Shown here in pieces: positions 1 to 44,008 of a stretch of 64,000 nucleotides of DNA (positions are counted from its first letter, which is position 1; every line of letters starts with the position of its first letter). Where the stretch lies: positions 1,350 to 65,349 of the forward strand of contig PLWS01000003.1 of the NCBI GenBank assembly GCA_003151115.1, given 5' to 3'. The notes beneath the pieces are model-generated. The model saw only the letters and a program-made list of their open reading frames with translations. It was not told where the DNA came from and searched no databases. A program made the translations under genes and the position numbers. The stretch comes from Vulcanimicrobiota bacterium (lineage in GTDB: Bacteria > Vulcanimicrobiota > Vulcanimicrobiia > Vulcanimicrobiales > Vulcanimicrobiaceae).

Positions 1-1110
<1,110 letters not shown>

Positions 1111-1212
1111 TGATTCACTTCATGCGTTTCGGCACTGAAAGTTCTTCTCTATGTAGCTTTCTCGCCGCGATCGGTTCGAGCTCCGGCTCGCCATCGCGGT
1201 GAGGATCAAGTT

Positions 1213-1328
1213 TCTGGCGCTCATAGCGGCGGGGCACCACCCGTTCCCATCCCGAACACGGCAGTTAAGCCCGCCAGCGCCGATGATAGTCGATTCGCAA
1301 GGATCCTCGAAAGTAGGTCGGCGCCAGA
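1213..1328 (+). rRNA. rrf: 5S rRNA
   Basis: The 116-nt segment has the terminal helix TCTGGCGC / GCGCCAGA and the conserved CCCGTTCCCATCCCGAACACGG core (two overlapping parts) followed by AGTTAAGCCCGCCAGCGCCGATGATAGT. It lies about 100 nt after the 23S 3' end in the same direction and is followed by a strong terminator, as expected for the last gene of an rRNA operon. No tRNA lies between 23S and 5S. Confidence 0.95.
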
Positions 1329-1340
1329 TTAAGTAAGAGA

Positions 1341-1371
1341 AGCCCGCCGGCAAAGTCCGGCGGGCTTTTTT
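1341..1371 (+). terminator. Rho-independent terminator of the rRNA operon
   Basis: Perfect stem AGCCCGCCGG / CCGGCGGGCT with loop CAAAGT followed by a run of T. It directly follows the 5S gene. Confidence 0.92.
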
Positions 1372-1389
1372 GTTTGAAGGAGGTTCGTC

Positions 1390-1644: not shown

Positions 1645-1678
1645 AAGGGGTCGGCGCTTTAAAGCGCCGACCCCTTTT
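1645..1678 (+). terminator. palindromic terminator upstream of the endonuclease gene
   Basis: A perfect 32-bp palindrome with 16-nt arms (AAGGGGTCGGCGCTTT and its complement) followed by TTTT. It can work in both directions and separates the SEC-C remnant from the endonuclease gene, so the latter is probably not read from the rRNA promoter. Confidence 0.8.
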
Positions 1679-1682
1679 GATT

Positions 1683-1700
1683 GTGCCAGACGTATGGCAC
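1683..1700 (+). promoter_or_regulatory. inverted repeat spanning the endonuclease start codon
   Basis: GTGCCA-GACGTA-TGGCAC, extendable to 8-nt arms TTGTGCCA/TGGCACAA (1681-1702). The ATG at 1694-1696 is in its right half. It could be an operator for autoregulation or an mRNA hairpin hiding the start codon; neither is shown. Confidence 0.5.
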
Positions 1701-2317
1701 AATTGGCGAGCAAACCTCAAGGTATGGAAACACGATTCGGGCGCGCCGCGCGGGCTCTTGATTTTACCGCTCGTGAAATGGAGATGTTCGCGGGCTCTCT
1801 ACTAGGAGATGCGACATTGCTGGAAACATCCTCCGGCTACTGCTTTCGTGTTCATCACGGGCTGAGTCAACGGTACTTTGTAGATTGGAAGCATCGCGCA
1901 TTTCAGCGATTTGTCAGAACCCCGCCGCGCATATCCGGGAAGGGCTACTATTTTCGTACGGTTACGCATCCTGGTTTTAGCGTTCTTCGCCGCGCATTTT
2001 ATCACGGTAACAGAAAAGTCGTGCCGATAGATTATCTCGACCGGCACCTAGGCGGGTTGGGCCTTGCCATATGGATTATGGATGACGGCGCGGCGGACGG
2101 CGGTCAATTGCGAATAAACACACCGAGCTTTACTGTTGCTGAAAACCAGGCTCTGGCAGCGCTTCTGGAACGAAAGTTTGGTCTAAAGATGACGCTCAAT
2201 TATGATAAAGGGCGCCCTCGGTTACGCTGCCGAGCCATGAGCATGAAGAGTTTGGTGGGGACCGTACGCGAGCATGTCCTTCCAGAGATGCATTACAAAC
2301 TGTCGCCGATCGCTTAA
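1694..2317 (+). CDS. free-standing LAGLIDADG homing endonuclease
   Basis: 207-aa protein with two LAGLIDADG-like helices: MFAGSLLGDATLLE (about residues 32-45) and LGGLGLAIWIMDDGAA (about 118-133), the acidic D and DD residues being the metal ligands of the family (LAGLIDADG_2-like). Such enzymes cut a long specific DNA site and drive copying of an intron or their own gene. Here the gene is not inside an intron: it stands 366 bp downstream of the 5S gene, while an ORF-less group I intron sits in the nearby 23S gene. It may mobilise that intron in trans; this is inference. The ATG at 1694 has no good Shine-Dalgarno; an in-frame ATG at 1724 is an alternative. Base composition looks less GC-rich than the flanks, consistent with transfer. 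Confidence 0.88.
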   Translation: MAQLASKPQGMETRFGRAARALDFTAREMEMFAGSLLGDATLLETSSGYCFRVHHGLSQRYFVDWKHRAFQRFVRTPPRISGKGYYFRTVTHPGFSVLRRAFYHGNRKVVPIDYLDRHLGGLGLAIWIMDDGAADGGQLRINTPSFTVAENQALAALLERKFGLKMTLNYDKGRPRLRCRAMSMKSLVGTVREHVLPEMHYKLSPIA

Positions 2318-2323
2318 ACCGGC

Positions 2324-2854
2324 TTAGCCCTGAAGCAAGTCCAACTTCGCGAAGATAACGGTTACGTCAAACGTAAGCCACGGCACGGCCGAATGTTCGA
2401 ATCTGTCGCCGGTAGCATAATTGCGCGCACCGTGCGAATCATGCGCGACAATGGTGCGCTTATCTGGATCGGCGACGAGAACCAGTACGCTCCCGGTTTG
2501 CAGATAGCGCTCGATTTTGCGCCGGAGGAAGGCAAGCTTGTCTGACGGCGAGCGAACTTCGACAGCAATGTCCGGTGCAAAGGGTGGTTCGTCGCGCTGC
2601 TTTTCCGGGATCGCGCGCAGACGTTCGAACGATACATATGCGACATCGGGAACGAACGTCGTGTTCGTGTCGTCGGCGCGACCGATCTTGAAGCGCCATT
2701 CCGGTCCGACGAAGCCGCGATCCCCGGCGAGATCCTCAATGGCGCGAATAAAGGCTGCCTGAACGCCCGCGTGGCGGGCTTTGGGACTCACCTTTGGGTA
2801 AGCTCGCCCGTCGAGCAGTTCGATTTCGGGCTTATCGGATAGTATTGGTGCCAT
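2324..2854 (-). CDS. Uma2 family (DUF820) restriction-endonuclease-fold protein
   Basis: About 176 aa. Pattern of the PD-(D/E)XK-fold Uma2 family: an early LLDGRAYPKVSPKARHAG segment, then FVPDVAYVS, APDIAVEVRSPSD (the D...E-x-K-like metal core) and KIERYLQTGSVLVLVADPD. The family is very abundant in cyanobacteria and Chloroflexi, often near mobile DNA, and its biological role is unknown. The start at 2854 is chosen because GGAG lies 8 nt upstream; the frame stays open to 2902. It lies tail to tail with the homing endonuclease gene, 6 bp apart. Confidence 0.85.
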   Translation of the reverse strand: MAPILSDKPEIELLDGRAYPKVSPKARHAGVQAAFIRAIEDLAGDRGFVGPEWRFKIGRADDTNTTFVPDVAYVSFERLRAIPEKQRDEPPFAPDIAVEVRSPSDKLAFLRRKIERYLQTGSVLVLVADPDKRTIVAHDSHGARNYATGDRFEHSAVPWLTFDVTVIFAKLDLLQG

Positions 2855-2911
2855 CGCGGATTCTCCACCGCATTCTATCACGACGGCGGATGGCTGCGGC
2901 AAGGGAACGAG

Positions 2912-3199
2912 CTAGCGGTTCTTCCAGAGTTCCGAAACGGGGCGGTTGAGCGCCGGGACGACGCCCAGCAGTCGCACCAAGAGCAGCAAGGCGATTATGC
3001 CCGTGATGCTAACCGGCGCCGGCCACGGCGGCGCGTGCAACACCCATTCCTGGCTGAAGACGCCGAAGACCGCGATAAGCAGGCCGGCATTCCACATTTT
3101 GTCGCCTTCGGCGCCTCTGTAGAACATGCCGAAGACCGCCAGGGCCACCCCGATGGCGACCATGATCGTTAGGTAATGAACGACATCGCTGACGATCAC
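2912..3199 (-). CDS. small membrane protein, hypothetical
   Basis: About 95 aa with three likely membrane helices (residues about 5-25, 35-55 and 65-85; hydrophobic runs such as IGVALAVFGMF and GIIALLLLVRLLGVV). I do not recognise a family. The GTG at 3199 overlaps the stop codon of the upstream S9 peptidase gene (GTGA), which suggests translational coupling and that it is the last gene of that operon; a TTG at 3223 is a longer alternative. Confidence 0.65.
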   Translation of the reverse strand: MIVSDVVHYLTIMVAIGVALAVFGMFYRGAEGDKMWNAGLLIAVFGVFSQEWVLHAPPWPAPVSITGIIALLLLVRLLGVVPALNRPVSELWKNR

Positions 3200-5145
3200 G
3201 ATCCCAAATACTTCACGAACCAAGCCTCCCAGCGGCGGTAGATGTCTTCGACACGGACGGGGTCTCGTGGAAAATGCCCTACGACGGGATAAATCACGAA
3301 CTCGACCGGCGTCCCTGTGGCGCGGACATCGTGGTAAAACTCATAGGCCAGCGGCGTCGGCACCCTGAAGTCGCCGGCGTCGCTCATGATTAGTGTCGGC
3401 GTTCGAACGTTGGAAGCGTAGCTCAAGGGCGACTCGGCTTCGTAAAGTTTGTATTCGGAAGGGCTAGACCAGGGCGATCTGCCGATAAACAGCGGCGCGA
3501 AGTCCTTAGAGTCGCTCATCGCGTCGTACTGCACCCAATCGTTGACAGCCGCGCCCGACACGGCGGCACGCCAGCGGCGGTCGTTTCCGATCAGCCACGA
3601 CGTCATGAGGCCGCCTTCGCTCCAGCCGGAAACCCCGATGCGGCTCGCGTCGATTGGCGCGGTCGCCAGAACCTTGGCGAGCCCCGCTTCGATGTCGCGC
3701 CCCGGGACGCTCGTGATGTGCGGCACCGTTGTGACCGCGTAACGCAGGCCTAAGTTGTCGCTGCCTCGATAATTCGGCTGGAAGACGTACCACCCGTGCG
3801 CGGCCATGACTTGCACGAAGCCGGAATATGCCGTCGTCGATGCCGACGTCGGCCCGCCGTGAATGTAAAGCACGAGCGGAGCTCTCCCGGACCGTTTGGC
3901 GGACGCGGGTGGCGCGGTGAGCACGCCGTCGGCGGTCAGTCCGTCGAACGTGCGCCAAGTTACAGGACGCGTGACTCCAATCTGGTAGTGCGCGATCCAG
4001 CCGTTGTAGTTCGTCAGGCGAACAGGCGACCGCGCACCCGGCGTGAGCAGATACAACTCGGCGGGATGATCCGGTGCCGTCGCCGTGAACGCGATCGTTC
4101 CGTTCTTAGAAACGCTCGACGCGCCCGCAGCGATATTGCCCAGCGGCAGCCTTGTTACCGCGCCGGTAGGGGTTACGCGAAAGAGGCGGCGCTGGGTGGC
4201 GTCGTTGGCGGTGAGAAGAAGCGATCCGCCTGGCAGAAATGAAGCGCCCGCGACGTTGCGATCGAGCCCCACGGTCACGCTGTGCGGGTGCGAGCCGTTT
4301 GCGTCCGCGAGCGCGATTTCAGTCTGCATGCGGCCGCGAGGATTGGCAAACGCAAAAGCAATCTGTCCGGAGGGAGCCCGCACGGGATCATTTTGCGTGC
4401 CGGAAAGTTGCGGAAGCGCGGCGACTGCTCCGCTCGAGACATTCACTCTTATCAGCTGAAGTGACAAGAACCGGTTGGGATGCCGGTCGTCCGTGATGCG
4501 CGTTACGAAGACGCTCTTGCCGTCACGGGCGTAGGTGAATCCGCCGCCGACTCTCCACGTGCTGCCGCCGATGCGGTGTGACTTTCCGCCTGAGCTCGCG
4601 ATTTGGTAGAGATATTCGGGCGTCGGAGCGGCTTGGTCGGTCCAGGCCTCATCGGTTACGTTGAATGCGTCGTCATGGGCTTTGATTGCCTTCGCATTCG
4701 GCGCTTCGATGTGCGCGCTGTAGGCGAATGCGCCGCCGTCGGGCCGCCAGGCGAATGCATCCACGCCCATCTTTTCATGCGTAACTTGAAATGCTTCGCC
4801 GCCGGTCATGGGCAGCACGAAGATCTGTGAAGTCTTTTCGGATGCGGGATCGTCGGGGTCGACGACGCCTTGCGCGATATACGCCAACTGCGAACCGTCG
4901 GGCGACCAGTCGATCTGTCCCAGGCCCGTTACGTCGCGAAGAAGGGTTCGAGCACCCCGCGTGCGCGCGTTAACGAGTACCAGGTCGGCTTTGGTGCGGT
5001 CCTTGTCGTAGTCGTTGCGCCGCACAATGATTGCGACGTTCTTTCCGTCCGGTGCGATCGCCGGCGAGGCGACCGCGACCGTCTTGCGAAGGTCTGCGAG
5101 CTTGAGCGTGAGCGCGGGCGGCGTGGTTAGGGCGAGAAGCATCAT
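3196..5145 (-). CDS. S9 family prolyl oligopeptidase (first of two tandem copies)
   Basis: About 649 aa: an N-terminal TolB/WD40-like beta-propeller (repeats such as SPAIAPDGKNVAIIV and IDWSPDGSQLAYIAQG) and a C-terminal alpha/beta-hydrolase domain. The catalytic triad is readable: Ser in GVSGWSEGGLMTS, Asp in SDAGDFRVP and His in VGHFPRDP; the oxyanion segment LYIHGGPTSA is present. Expected to cleave short peptides or acylaminoacyl peptides. The start at 5145 overlaps the stop of the upstream paralogue (ATGA); ATG at 5154 is also possible. Unlike its neighbour it has only a weak leader. The two copies align over their full length and probably arose by duplication. Confidence 0.93.
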   Translation of the reverse strand: MMLLALTTPPALTLKLADLRKTVAVASPAIAPDGKNVAIIVRRNDYDKDRTKADLVLVNARTRGARTLLRDVTGLGQIDWSPDGSQLAYIAQGVVDPDDPASEKTSQIFVLPMTGGEAFQVTHEKMGVDAFAWRPDGGAFAYSAHIEAPNAKAIKAHDDAFNVTDEAWTDQAAPTPEYLYQIASSGGKSHRIGGSTWRVGGGFTYARDGKSVFVTRITDDRHPNRFLSLQLIRVNVSSGAVAALPQLSGTQNDPVRAPSGQIAFAFANPRGRMQTEIALADANGSHPHSVTVGLDRNVAGASFLPGGSLLLTANDATQRRLFRVTPTGAVTRLPLGNIAAGASSVSKNGTIAFTATAPDHPAELYLLTPGARSPVRLTNYNGWIAHYQIGVTRPVTWRTFDGLTADGVLTAPPASAKRSGRAPLVLYIHGGPTSASTTAYSGFVQVMAAHGWYVFQPNYRGSDNLGLRYAVTTVPHITSVPGRDIEAGLAKVLATAPIDASRIGVSGWSEGGLMTSWLIGNDRRWRAAVSGAAVNDWVQYDAMSDSKDFAPLFIGRSPWSSPSEYKLYEAESPLSYASNVRTPTLIMSDAGDFRVPTPLAYEFYHDVRATGTPVEFVIYPVVGHFPRDPVRVEDIYRRWEAWFVKYLGS

Positions 5146-7157
5146 TTCATCCACCGATCGAACCAGCCGGCCCAGGCTCGAAGCGTTATCTCTCGTCCGA
5201 CCGGGTCGGTCGCGAAGTGGCCGTAACGCGGGATGGCTGTGAATTTCACGGTTGCTCCCCGATCGCGCAGCGCGTGATAGAACGTATAGGCTTGCGACAC
5301 CGGAACTCGCTGATCGCGGGTGTCGCTGAGAATCAGCGTCGGCGTCTTGACGTTCGCCGCGAACGTAATCGGCGATTCCGCCGCGTATGCCGCCCGGCCG
5401 GCTGGGCTAAATGGCAGCACGCCGTTGAAGAACGTCTGTACGAAATTCTCGTTGATGTCGGCGAGCACGGCTTGCTGATACCAATCGGTGACGGCGGCCC
5501 CCATCACAGCCGCGCGCCAGTTCGCGTGACCGATAAGCCACGAGGTTTGCAAACCTCCGCCCGACCAGCCGGATACGCCGATGCGGTTTTCGTCGATCAT
5601 TCCGGTCGCGCGCAACGCCGCTACCGCAGCGAGATTGTCACGCCCGGGCCCGCTCGTTACGTCGCCGACAATCGCTTGCAGGAACGCATCGCCGAGATTG
5701 TCACTGCCTCGATAATTCGGGCGGAAGACGAAGTAATCGCGCGCTGCCAAAATTTGGACGAGCGACAAACCTTCGAGCCCGCTCATATCCCAGGTCGAGG
5801 TCGACACCGGACCCCCATGAATGTCGAGGACAAGCGGATACTTGCGTCCGGCTACATAGTGTACCGGATACGTGAGAACGCCATCGGCCTTTGTGCCAAG
5901 ATCGGTTTGCCATTCGAACGCTTCCGATCGCGCGAGCGAAAAGTCGCCCATCCAAGCATTTTCATTAGTGATCCGCAGCGGCGTGGTAGAGAAAGGCGGC
6001 AGATAATATATTTCGCCGGGACGGTCGCGACGCAGACCTACAAAAGCCATAGCACTATCGCTCGTAACCGTAGCATCGGGCGCGACGTCGAGAGCTCCGA
6101 AATCCGTTTTCTTCGTTGGCTGGCTATTGCCGAGCTCATGCACCCAGAGCACGCTTCGAACGCCGTCGTTGGTCACGAGGAAATCGAGACCAAGTTTCGT
6201 GCAGTCATACCATTGAACGTTCCTATCAATCTCGGAGGCGGAATTCCATCCTTTTGCTAAGTCGCGGCTTCCATAGGAGACAAGATCATTCTGAAGATAG
6301 AGTGATCCGTGGCGAGGTTTCGTCGTCAGCAAATAGGCGCCGCTCGACGTAGGCCCACCGTAAATCCTAGTATGGCAAAGCTTCGGTTGAGAATCGACAC
6401 CAAAGCCCATATCGGTGCTGGTTTTGCTCGCTACGTCGTAAACGTAAGTCGTCTGGGAAACGAAGTGCGCAAAAATCGGATCCGGCTGCCGTTGATAATA
6501 AATCTTCGAGCCATCCGGCGCCCACACAGGCGCGCTCCCTTTGACCACGCTCCATGTCCCCGACGTCAGACGATTCGCAGTGCCTCCGGTCGCATCGACA
6601 AGCCAAAGGTGCGCGGGCTGCGGCGCTTCGCGCGTCAGGTAATCGTTGTCGGTAATGATGACGGCGTCGAGGTGTTTGTCGAGCGCCTTTTGGTTTGCCG
6701 GATCGTCGTCGGATACGTACGCGAGCGCATTGCCGTCCGGACGCCAGGCGTAGTCTTGCACGCCTGCCTTGTTGCTCGTGAGCTGCAACGAATCGCCGCC
6801 GTCCATGGGCATCACGAAGAGCTGCGCGGGCTTGCCGGTTTCAGGGGAGGCCAGGAACGCCAAACGGGTACCATCGGGAGACCACTGCGGGTTGCTCACG
6901 CCGTTCCGGTAGCGCGTCAAGGTTCGAGCGCCGGTGCCGTCGACGTTGACGAGAACCAGCTCCGTGCGGTTGCGATCGGCTTTCCAATCTACCGTCGAGC
7001 GAACGTAGACGATCTGAATACCGTTCGGGGAAATGCGCGGCTGGCTGACGCTGACGACGCGACGCAAATCCTCGAAGGTTAGCACACGCTGGGTAGCCGG
7101 CGACGTCGCGGCGGTTGCAAGCAATGCGAGTGGAAGAAGAATCAGCGCACGCATCAT
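5142..7157 (-). CDS. S9 family prolyl oligopeptidase (second tandem copy), probably exported
   Basis: About 671 aa with a signal peptide (MMRALILLPLALLATAATS), propeller repeats (SQPRISPNGIQIVYV, PQWSPDGTRLAFLAS, YAWRPDGNALAYVSD) and a hydrolase domain with Ser in GVSGWSGGGLQTS, Asp in LSDTRDQRVP and His in YGHFATDP. The start at 7157 overlaps the stop of the AttH-like gene (ATGA), so three genes in a row are translationally coupled. A role in scavenging extracellular peptides is likely from the family and the signal peptide, not shown. Confidence 0.93.
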   Translation of the reverse strand: MMRALILLPLALLATAATSPATQRVLTFEDLRRVVSVSQPRISPNGIQIVYVRSTVDWKADRNRTELVLVNVDGTGARTLTRYRNGVSNPQWSPDGTRLAFLASPETGKPAQLFVMPMDGGDSLQLTSNKAGVQDYAWRPDGNALAYVSDDDPANQKALDKHLDAVIITDNDYLTREAPQPAHLWLVDATGGTANRLTSGTWSVVKGSAPVWAPDGSKIYYQRQPDPIFAHFVSQTTYVYDVASKTSTDMGFGVDSQPKLCHTRIYGGPTSSGAYLLTTKPRHGSLYLQNDLVSYGSRDLAKGWNSASEIDRNVQWYDCTKLGLDFLVTNDGVRSVLWVHELGNSQPTKKTDFGALDVAPDATVTSDSAMAFVGLRRDRPGEIYYLPPFSTTPLRITNENAWMGDFSLARSEAFEWQTDLGTKADGVLTYPVHYVAGRKYPLVLDIHGGPVSTSTWDMSGLEGLSLVQILAARDYFVFRPNYRGSDNLGDAFLQAIVGDVTSGPGRDNLAAVAALRATGMIDENRIGVSGWSGGGLQTSWLIGHANWRAAVMGAAVTDWYQQAVLADINENFVQTFFNGVLPFSPAGRAAYAAESPITFAANVKTPTLILSDTRDQRVPVSQAYTFYHALRDRGATVKFTAIPRYGHFATDPVGREITLRAWAGWFDRWMK

Positions 7158-8788
7158 GAGGATAGTCCGTTCTTGGAGCAGCAATCTAGGACGCGTTTCA
7201 GTTCCTTAGCATTCGGCGGCCAAATCGTATACAGCAGAGCCGCGAGCTTATCGAGTGCCGACGGCACCGGCCGCTGCAAGAGTTTCATCGTCGCCTCGTC
7301 CGCGGGCAACCCGGCCAATTTCGCTTGGAAAGCTTGGGTGTTCGCGTAGTTCGTCGCTTCGGCAAAACCCGTACCGATTTGACGTCCGTCCGGGGCGCTG
7401 AGTTTAGTTCCGCCTTCCAAATATTCGGCGCCGTTTGCAAAGTAGCCCATTTGTCCGCCGGCGACCAGTGGCGTCATAACGACGTTTCGCAGATGGCTTG
7501 GAGCCGGCTCGTCAAACGTAAACTCCCAGCGATTCGGATACCACGATCCCGTCGGCGGATACGCGGCATCGTTGGAATGCGTGGCCTTGACCCACTCCGT
7601 GACGCTGAGCGTCCCTTTCAGATCGCTGGTTTCCGCCTGCGGGTTCATCAGTTTCCCCGCTACGGGAACCGTCATCACGCCGGGCGGTTCGGCGCCCGTT
7701 TGAAAATAGAACTGGGAATTGGCTTGCGCGTGCATCGCCGCCACTGTGATCTCGTAATTATCGTCGAACTGCAGCGGGAACCAATCCCAGCCTCCCGGGC
7801 TCGGCGTCGCCAGCACGGAAGCTGCTCGCAACGGCGCACTCATCGGTGCGCCCGACGGTAAGAAGCCGGTTCCCCATTGGTGATCCATCCAGAATATTCC
7901 GGATTGCAGTTCTACTCGGTTTCCGTCAGTTTCGAGCCAACTGCCGGGCTCGAGAACAAGGCCGGGAATCGAATAATACAGCGTTCCGATCCCGGCGCAG
8001 CATGGTGAGCAGCCGCTGCCGCCTTGGAGCAAGATGCCTTTGCCCTTTGAAAAGCGCAGGTCGATCGCGAGCTCCGCGTGGTCGCCCGTGCCGCGATCCC
8101 ATCCCTTGGCTTGTAAGTGGAGAGGAAAGAGATCGCCGCGCTGTTGCGCTTCTATGCTGTTCTTTCCGATCGCCCAGCGAAACGGATCGTCGCGAACGTC
8201 GATTAAGCTCGTCGTTCCGGCGATCAGCAGCGGCGCCGCGCGATAGTGGCGGCCGCCTTCCTCGGTAACGGCGAGGTGCATTTCCATGACTTGGTTTTCG
8301 ATGTCGCTCAAACCAAAACGCGCGGCCACCGGTGGCGGAAGAAGCGCCCACTGCCAAAACATGAGCTCGGCGCTGTAGGTCTTTCCGTTCGCGCCCTTCG
8401 CGGTGCCAACGAAAAAATGCCAGCCGACCTGATACTTCAAGAAGACGCGATGGTCGCGCGGAAACTGCAAGCCGGCCGTCTCGCCCAGCAATTCGTAACC
8501 CTCGACGGTGTCGCTGCCGAGCAGATTCGACATCACATAGGCTTGGTGGGCCGAGAGTTCCGCGCAATGTTCGATGAAGAACTCGTAGCGCCGGGCATAG
8601 CTCGGCACGAAGCTGATCGAGCGTTTTTTCAAATCTTGGAGATAGCCGCGCATGCGTTCGCCGAACGACGCATTCGAGTTTTTCGCGCTATTGACGAACT
8701 CGGCGGTTCGCGGCTCTAAGGTCGAAAGCTCGAACGTTTCGGTCCAGAGAGCGCGCGCAATGTTATCGGCAGTGTTCGCATCAAGCAC
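7154..8788 (-). CDS. AttH/CrtC-like (hydroxyneurosporene synthase-fold) protein
   Basis: 544 aa. The segment SGIFWMDHQWGTGFLPSG is the hallmark of the AttH/CrtC lipocalin-like family (carotenoid 1,2-hydratases and predicted secreted hydrolases), with SAELMFWQWALLPPP and VMEMHLAVTEEGGRHYRA earlier in the chain. There is an additional N-terminal helical region of about 100 aa and no obvious signal peptide, so it may be cytoplasmic. No other carotenoid gene lies nearby, so a carotenoid substrate is not supported. GTG start at 8788 with no clear ribosome-binding site. It is the first gene of the coupled operon with the two S9 peptidases. Confidence 0.72.
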   Translation of the reverse strand: MLDANTADNIARALWTETFELSTLEPRTAEFVNSAKNSNASFGERMRGYLQDLKKRSISFVPSYARRYEFFIEHCAELSAHQAYVMSNLLGSDTVEGYELLGETAGLQFPRDHRVFLKYQVGWHFFVGTAKGANGKTYSAELMFWQWALLPPPVAARFGLSDIENQVMEMHLAVTEEGGRHYRAAPLLIAGTTSLIDVRDDPFRWAIGKNSIEAQQRGDLFPLHLQAKGWDRGTGDHAELAIDLRFSKGKGILLQGGSGCSPCCAGIGTLYYSIPGLVLEPGSWLETDGNRVELQSGIFWMDHQWGTGFLPSGAPMSAPLRAASVLATPSPGGWDWFPLQFDDNYEITVAAMHAQANSQFYFQTGAEPPGVMTVPVAGKLMNPQAETSDLKGTLSVTEWVKATHSNDAAYPPTGSWYPNRWEFTFDEPAPSHLRNVVMTPLVAGGQMGYFANGAEYLEGGTKLSAPDGRQIGTGFAEATNYANTQAFQAKLAGLPADEATMKLLQRPVPSALDKLAALLYTIWPPNAKELKRVLDCCSKNGLSS

Positions 8789-43770: not shown

Positions 43771-43875
43771 GTCAGGCGCCAAGGAAGAGCCCCGGGGGAG
43801 GACACCCGAGCCTGGGGGGAAAGTAGGGCGCTAAGGACGCCGGCTCTTATGAGTCCCGGCGTAGGAACCTGCCAG
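43771..43875 (+). other. structured leader upstream of the c-di-AMP riboswitch
   Basis: A GC-rich 105-nt segment with complementary parts, for example GACGCCGG with CCCGGCGT around CTCTTATGAGT (about 43838-43862). It contains GGGGGA and GTAGGGCG, seen also in the riboswitch, but not the CGAACCCGTCAACTAACC core, so it is not a second copy. I cannot assign it. Confidence 0.35.
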
Positions 43876-43876
43876 T

Positions 43877-43991
43877 AATCACTGAGTCCGGGAGCAGCCC
43901 GGAGCGGGGGATTCTCCGGTGGGGTGAATGGGCCGGTCGGCCCTAGGGCGATCTTTCACGTCCGAACCCGTCAACTAACCCCGCAAGTGTT
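43877..43991 (+). promoter_or_regulatory. c-di-AMP riboswitch (ydaO/yuaA type)
   Basis: Family blocks appear in order: AGCGGGGGA (43903-43911), GGGGTGAATG (43921-43930), AGGGCGAT (43945-43952) and CCGAACCCGTCAACTAACC (43962-43980), closed by P1 between CACT (43880-43883) and AGTG (43986-43989). In Bacillus this motif turns off osmolyte and cell-wall hydrolase genes when c-di-AMP is high. Here it precedes an NlpC/P60 hydrolase; its closeness to cdaA-cdaR-glmM links maker and sensor. No terminator lies before the start codon, so control of translation seems likelier. Confidence 0.92.
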
Positions 43992-44008
43992 TTGAAAGAG
44001 GAGCAGTC

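Follow-up and report, generated by a model that had tools for sequence, protein, structure and literature searches.

The rRNA operon of an Eremiobacterota genome (G000; 2.56 Mb in 8 contigs) probably harbors an SOS-inducible split mobile element of the collaborative, trans-homing kind. Its two parts are an ORF-less group I intron at site L2473 of the 23S rRNA gene and a LAGLIDADG endonuclease encoded by a free-standing gene behind the 5S rRNA gene; cleavage by the enzyme and LexA binding upstream of its gene are both predicted. The window, i.e. the whole analyzed stretch of 64,000 nucleotides (G000:C2:1350-65349), contains the following features at this locus:

1-1117, plus strand: 23S rRNA gene, 3' part, interrupted by an intron (Rfam RF02541, 869 bits; the contig begins inside the 23S gene)
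419-692, plus strand: ORF-less group I intron at L2473, 274 nt (junctions, covariation, IGS pairing)
1213-1329, plus strand: 5S rRNA (Rfam RF00001, 98 bits)
1340-1372, plus strand: terminator-like hairpin after 5S, GCCCGCCGG...CCGGCGGGC TTTTTTG (sequence, scan)
1645-1680, plus strand: second terminator-like hairpin, between 5S and the endonuclease gene (sequence, scan)
1682-1701, no strand assigned: LexA (SOS)-box palindrome TGTGCCAGACGTATGGCACA, 22 nt before the start codon (lexA/recA-site matrix, 22.6 bits)
1724-2317, plus strand: free-standing LAGLIDADG_2 endonuclease gene, 197 aa (profile, PDB sequence comparison, alignment, AF2 model, dN/dS)

The 274-nt intron is inserted exactly after U2473 (E. 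coli numbering). Its junctions are U/C...G/C, with a 5' exon ending in ...CCAAGAGT, a terminal G of the intron and a 3' exon beginning with CCACATCGAC..., and the IGS GGGCUCU pairs with the exon sequence AGAGU. The Rfam Intron_gpI score is low (18 bits). An alignment of eight L2473 introns from G000, G003, G110, CPR bacteria and a gammaproteobacterium, from which the ORFs had been removed, contains 18 covarying pairs in the group I core. Judged by core helices, covariation, exon U and terminal G, the insert is a group I intron with putative self-splicing activity. In all ORF-bearing L2473 relatives, the P6 loop is taken up by the ORF, whose stop codon falls within the conserved core sequence CCCTGTAACGACT; G000 and G003 have a short P6a hairpin in place of the ORF.

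Further introns were observed in the 23S genes under study. In G000 itself, a second ORF-less group I intron (Rfam 74 bits) is located at L1931, just upstream of the window (L005:1035-1305), and inserts at this site are also present in G003, G004, and G110. Introns at about L2593-2600 were found in G072 (L068, ~3003-3302), G065 (L071, ~6834-7108), and G098 (L069, ~7330-7556). Over 140 nt, the G098 intron shows 91% identity to the 3' portion of the L2473 intron found in G110, a likeness that suggests intron movement between 23S sites. A gammaproteobacterial locus (L021) carries stacked inserts in a single 23S gene (2484-4182, 4705-5510, and 5526-6343), which comprise two LAGLIDADG ORFs near L1919-1952 together with an L2473 enzyme disrupted by a frameshift and an L2500 enzyme that is intact. 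G024 has two distinct 23S genes (L036 and L039 on contigs C4 and C35), one of which alone contains an ORF-bearing L2500 intron; this genome represents either two operons or a mixed bin, and its L2500 intron may not belong to Eremiobacterota.

Behind the 5S gene, the endonuclease gene follows the intron at a distance of ~1.03 kb. A scan for a sigma-70 promoter found none. The DNA between 5S and the endonuclease gene also contains a small ORF with a SEC-C-like motif at its end (1370-1588); this DNA is shared with G005 and missing from G003. Elsewhere in the window, a c-di-AMP (ydaO/yuaA) riboswitch was detected at 43870-44005 (87 bits), here in a member of the Eremiobacterota.

The initial annotation had placed a LAGLIDADG endonuclease ORF at 1694-2317, outside any intron and after the rRNA operon, next to a 23S intron lacking an ORF. 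The ORF proved to be real: it matches the Pfam family LAGLIDADG_2 with E = 2.2e-33 (116 bits versus a cut-off of 25), and its closest PDB entry by sequence is I-SceI (4e-14). The AF2 model (mean pLDDT 95.1) has the pseudo-twofold LAGLIDADG fold with both catalytic acidic motifs and superimposes on I-SceI (1r7m) with a TM score of 0.88, the range for I-SceI and I-WcaI being 0.88-0.89. The motifs GSLLGDA (D29) and WIMDDG (D120/D121) are intact and of the catalytic type, and these acidic residues are invariant in 18 relatives. The gene thus encodes an I-SceI-type LAGLIDADG_2 endonuclease, for which site-specific cleavage is predicted. Its position outside any intron was likewise borne out, as a search with Rfam over the gene revealed no intron or other RNA family; the gene is therefore regarded as free-standing. 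The absence of an ORF from the intron was confirmed as well. The start codon had to be revised from 1694 to ATG 1724, because the N-terminus METRFGRAAR aligns there with VETRLAREAR, the start of intron-encoded relatives, and because position 1694 lies inside the LexA-type palindrome. Comparison of the free-standing genes of G000 and its genus-mate G005 yielded a dN/dS of ~0.17 (0.138/0.804), and that of G051 and G025 a value of 0.12 (0.064/0.55), so these genes are under purifying selection. The G025 gene (L031:7593-8123) is shorter at its C-terminal end than that of G051, perhaps because it recently became a pseudogene or because of a fault in the assembly.

The nearest intron-encoded relatives of the enzyme are all located in L2473 introns. 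The closest of them (61% identity; G110, L047) is from the same bacterial family, and those at ~47% are from L017-L020, which are partly CPR bacteria, and from the frameshifted gammaproteobacterial copy at L021. Intron-encoded 23S relatives with an identity of 38% or less reside at L2500, L2504, or L2586. As the nearest relatives sit exactly at L2473, the ancestral target of the enzyme was most likely the site that is now occupied by the ORF-less intron. At 18 alignment columns that separate the enzymes of L2473 introns from those of L2500 introns, the window protein has the L2473 residue in 15 cases and the L2500 residue in 2. For these comparisons, the 23S genes of relatives were located by BLAST against the E. 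coli 23S gene, since the Rfam LSU search is lossy on intron-split genes; most of the comparison genomes are probably MAGs.

Eremiobacterota are the only group in which free-standing copies next to an rRNA operon were found, and all of them lie just 3' of 5S. Copies of the L2473 type occur in G000, G005 (77%), G003 (62%), and, in inverted orientation, G051 and G025 (53%); the 5S gene of G025 is off the contig, and the placement of its copy rests on likeness to G051. L2500-type copies occur in G001, G009, and G070. A free-standing endonuclease gene and an ORF-less intron are linked in one genome in G000 and G003 for L2473 and in G009 for L2500. The genus-mate G003 is the strongest replicate, because its whole array of ORF-less L2473 intron and gene after 5S lies within a 1.22-Mb contig. 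G009 represents a parallel split, with an ORF-less intron of ~290 nt at L2500 and an L2500-type enzyme behind 5S. The phylogenetic tree separates an L2473 clade from an L2500 clade, and both contain free-standing as well as intron-encoded members. A single clade of all free-standing genes is rejected (AU, p = 7e-48), which implies at least two relocations. Within the L2473 clade, the tree is compatible with either order of events: a single free-standing clade agrees with the data (AU, p = 0.12), and the intron-encoded G110 gene nests beside free-standing G003 with a support of 83-89. A phage as vector of the endonuclease was ruled out, relatives in viral collections being only 23-33% identical.

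In a survey of 149 genomes of the phylum, an endonuclease homolog of any kind was present in 11. The L2473 site could be scored in 41 Eremiobacterota genomes, the L2473/L2500 region of 23S being unassembled in G005, G001, G051, G025, and G070. Eleven of the scored genomes contain the L2473 intron (G000, G003, G110, G134, G128, G054, G106, G072, G071, G065, and G108), and the site is intact in the other 30. The L2473-type enzyme was found in 3 of the 11 intron genomes and in none of the 30 with an intact site (Fisher p = 0.015, to be taken as a guide because the genomes are related; they are few and mostly MAGs). In the remaining eight, the intron occurs with no enzyme at all and is thus able to persist by itself. 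A nested distribution of this kind would be expected of an enzyme acting in trans, which can be retained only in genomes whose site is shielded by the intron. The initial annotation had suggested that gene and intron are parts of a split element, had proposed their co-occurrence in relatives as a check, and had named wide occurrence of the gene in genomes without the intron as evidence against it. The co-occurrence and the repeated layout in G003 now lend support to this idea, as does the exclusive L2473 location of the nearest intron-encoded relatives, and the gene is absent from all intact-site genomes. Added to that first description are the SOS box, the revised start codon, the example of an intact element provided by G110, and the parallel case at L2500.

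Upstream of the endonuclease gene lies a palindrome of the form TGTGCCA-N6-TGGCAC. A matrix built exclusively from sites upstream of lexA and recA scores it with 22.6 bits, which is the best value in the 64-kb window; the next site reaches 8.0 bits and the best of five shuffled sequences 15.4 bits. Of 30 genomes of the family, 24 have the box upstream of lexA (at most 2 mismatches in 12 positions), and all six genomes of the genus, G000 included, have it before recA; random windows from lexA/recA loci reach the same match level in ~5% of cases. Five of the six lexA exceptions belong to genus g19 (L132, L138, L139, L142, and L143), implying a changed operator in that genus. In the phylum, the palindrome pattern occurs in 51 of 149 genomes, with a reversed control near zero. 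A repeat private to the cassette was ruled out, as the palindrome also precedes lexA, recA, ssb, a RecB-like gene, and others (recA and ssb were identified from sequence, without a profile search). A general feature of the DNA downstream of 5S was dismissed as well, because 12 operons that have no free-standing gene lack the palindrome behind 5S.

Five of the eight free-standing copies (G000, G005, G003, G001, and G009) have the box 21-22 nt before the start, which for G009 is counted from a GTG one codon into the open frame. These copies include enzymes of both site types, which are mutually only ~36% identical. The box is missing from the free-standing copies of G051, G025, and G070 and upstream of the intron-encoded copies examined (G110, G024, and G023). 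The match of 1682-1701 to the lexA/recA operator of the lineage points to control of the endonuclease gene by LexA. Seven exact boxes occur in G000, five of which precede stand-alone nuclease genes, namely the LAGLIDADG gene, one Endo VII-type gene, and three HNH-type genes, two of the HNH matches being slightly below the Pfam curated cut-off. The boxes of the Endo VII-type and HNH genes are located at G000:C2:294784 (L103) and at G000:C6:312860 (L104), 447611 (L105), and 798978 (L106). Similar pairs of box and nuclease gene were observed in G005, G003, G001, G045, G101, G104, and G023.

In the proposed mechanism, the endonuclease would formerly have been encoded in the P6 loop of an L2473 group I intron, as it still is in relatives, before its gene came to lie behind 5S. 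The L2473 location of these relatives and the absence of the enzyme from genomes with intact sites suggest the insertion site of the intron as its putative target. When an intronless 23S allele is brought in or met through recombination, the enzyme would cut this allele at L2473 or close to it. Repair with the donor operon as template would then copy the intron, which would block further cutting. Co-conversion could also copy the linked gene, 0.7-1.0 kb downstream of the cut site. Since the gene follows a LexA-type operator, its expression is expected to rise along with the RecA-dependent repair that the SOS response induces. The endonuclease probably still cuts the target site of the intron, and intron and enzyme would be copied together.

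The present-day mechanism would be the same if a stand-alone enzyme beside the operon had been preadapted to L2473 and had entered an ORF-less intron later, as in G110. This order is the one proposed in models of collaborative homing in phages, and it agrees with the nesting of G110 beside G003, with the compatibility of a single free-standing L2473 clade, and with the wide distribution of ORF-less L2473 introns in Eremiobacterota. Nevertheless, it appears unlikely, given that the L2473 enzymes of CPR bacteria and the gammaproteobacterium are intron-encoded and that the copies of G000/G003 and G051/G025 differ in orientation and leader, which suggests separate relocations. Somewhat more doubtful is domestication, in which the host would have recruited the gene for a nuclease induced by damage and the intron would no longer be mobilized by it. 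The LexA box, the purifying selection, and the other SOS-boxed stand-alone nucleases of G000 would fit such a role; the patchy distribution of homologs in the phylum, the retained L2473-type residues, the location of the gene next to the operon with its putative site, and the fact that the enzyme was never seen together with an intact site speak against it.

Some LAGLIDADG proteins are maturase-like, including the one of the Thermotoga 23S intron (reviewed in PMC3984707), and the protein could accordingly assist splicing of the L2473 intron in trans instead of its movement. This role is very improbable, as many ORF-less L2473 introns persist without such a protein, both LAGLIDADG catalytic motifs are intact, and an SOS operator is ill-suited to constitutive rRNA splicing. 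Least credible of all is a chance neighborhood of gene and intron with an enzyme acting at another site, for which the second ORF-less intron in the same operon might be cited. Its site, L1931, was ruled out as the target by the site-specific phylogeny; moreover, L1931-type sites of CPR bacteria have LAGLIDADG_1 and not LAGLIDADG_2 enzymes (PMC11270868), and the genus of G000 yielded no LAGLIDADG_1 enzyme. The repetition of the layout in G003 and, for L2500, in G009 also argues against coincidence.

The split element, which is the preferred reading, resembles several known systems. With I-SceI and the omega intron of the yeast mitochondrial 21S rRNA it shares the enzyme fold, the Pfam family, and, as predicted here, a target in domain V of LSU rRNA. 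The omega intron is inserted at L2449. The element described here differs from it by the L2473 site, a smaller enzyme, a free-standing gene, and a bacterial host. Trans homing has been described from phages, where it is used to explain the formation of mobile introns, with F-CphI and the cyanophage psbA intron as well as T4 MobE and the nrdB intron as examples (PMC3984707, PMC2988022, PMC6083498). As in these pairs, a free-standing endonuclease is linked to a group I intron that lacks an ORF or has a defective endonuclease. A target at or near the intron site and its protection by the intron are known from the phage pairs and predicted for the present one. In contrast to the phage pairs, which involve phage protein genes and HNH or Endo VII-type enzymes, a LAGLIDADG_2 enzyme is encoded here behind 5S in a bacterial rRNA operon, the gene is preceded by a LexA box, and two intron sites show the split. 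The rRNA insertions of CPR bacteria with LAGLIDADG enzymes belong to the same intron and enzyme lineages, and ORF-bearing and ORF-less introns occur side by side at several of their 23S sites (PMC11270868). The ORFs of that survey lie inside the insertions and the word "free-standing" is nowhere in its text, whereas the gene described here is free-standing. A LexA operator that ties recombination activity to DNA damage is also a feature of SOS-controlled mobile elements such as integron integrases, according to abstracts. The titles and abstracts of a partial literature collection contain no SOS-controlled homing endonuclease.

A broader reading, for which the chances appear about even, is that Eremiobacterota possess an SOS-controlled set of stand-alone homing-type endonucleases, comprising LAGLIDADG enzymes of two site specificities at rRNA operons and HNH and Endo VII-type enzymes elsewhere. 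Each of these would have acquired a LexA box, and homing of linked or split introns would be timed to coincide with DNA damage and the induction of RecA. A natural series of states exists within a single bacterial family and the class to which it belongs, from an intron with the ORF inside (G110) via split pairs (G000, G003, and G009) and the intron alone (eight scored genomes) to empty sites (30 genomes), so that the order of events becomes testable. The LexA box suggests a way to keep a risky nuclease silent until repair is induced. If true, its presence on homing enzymes would be a direct tie of selfish DNA cutting to the DNA-damage response of the host.
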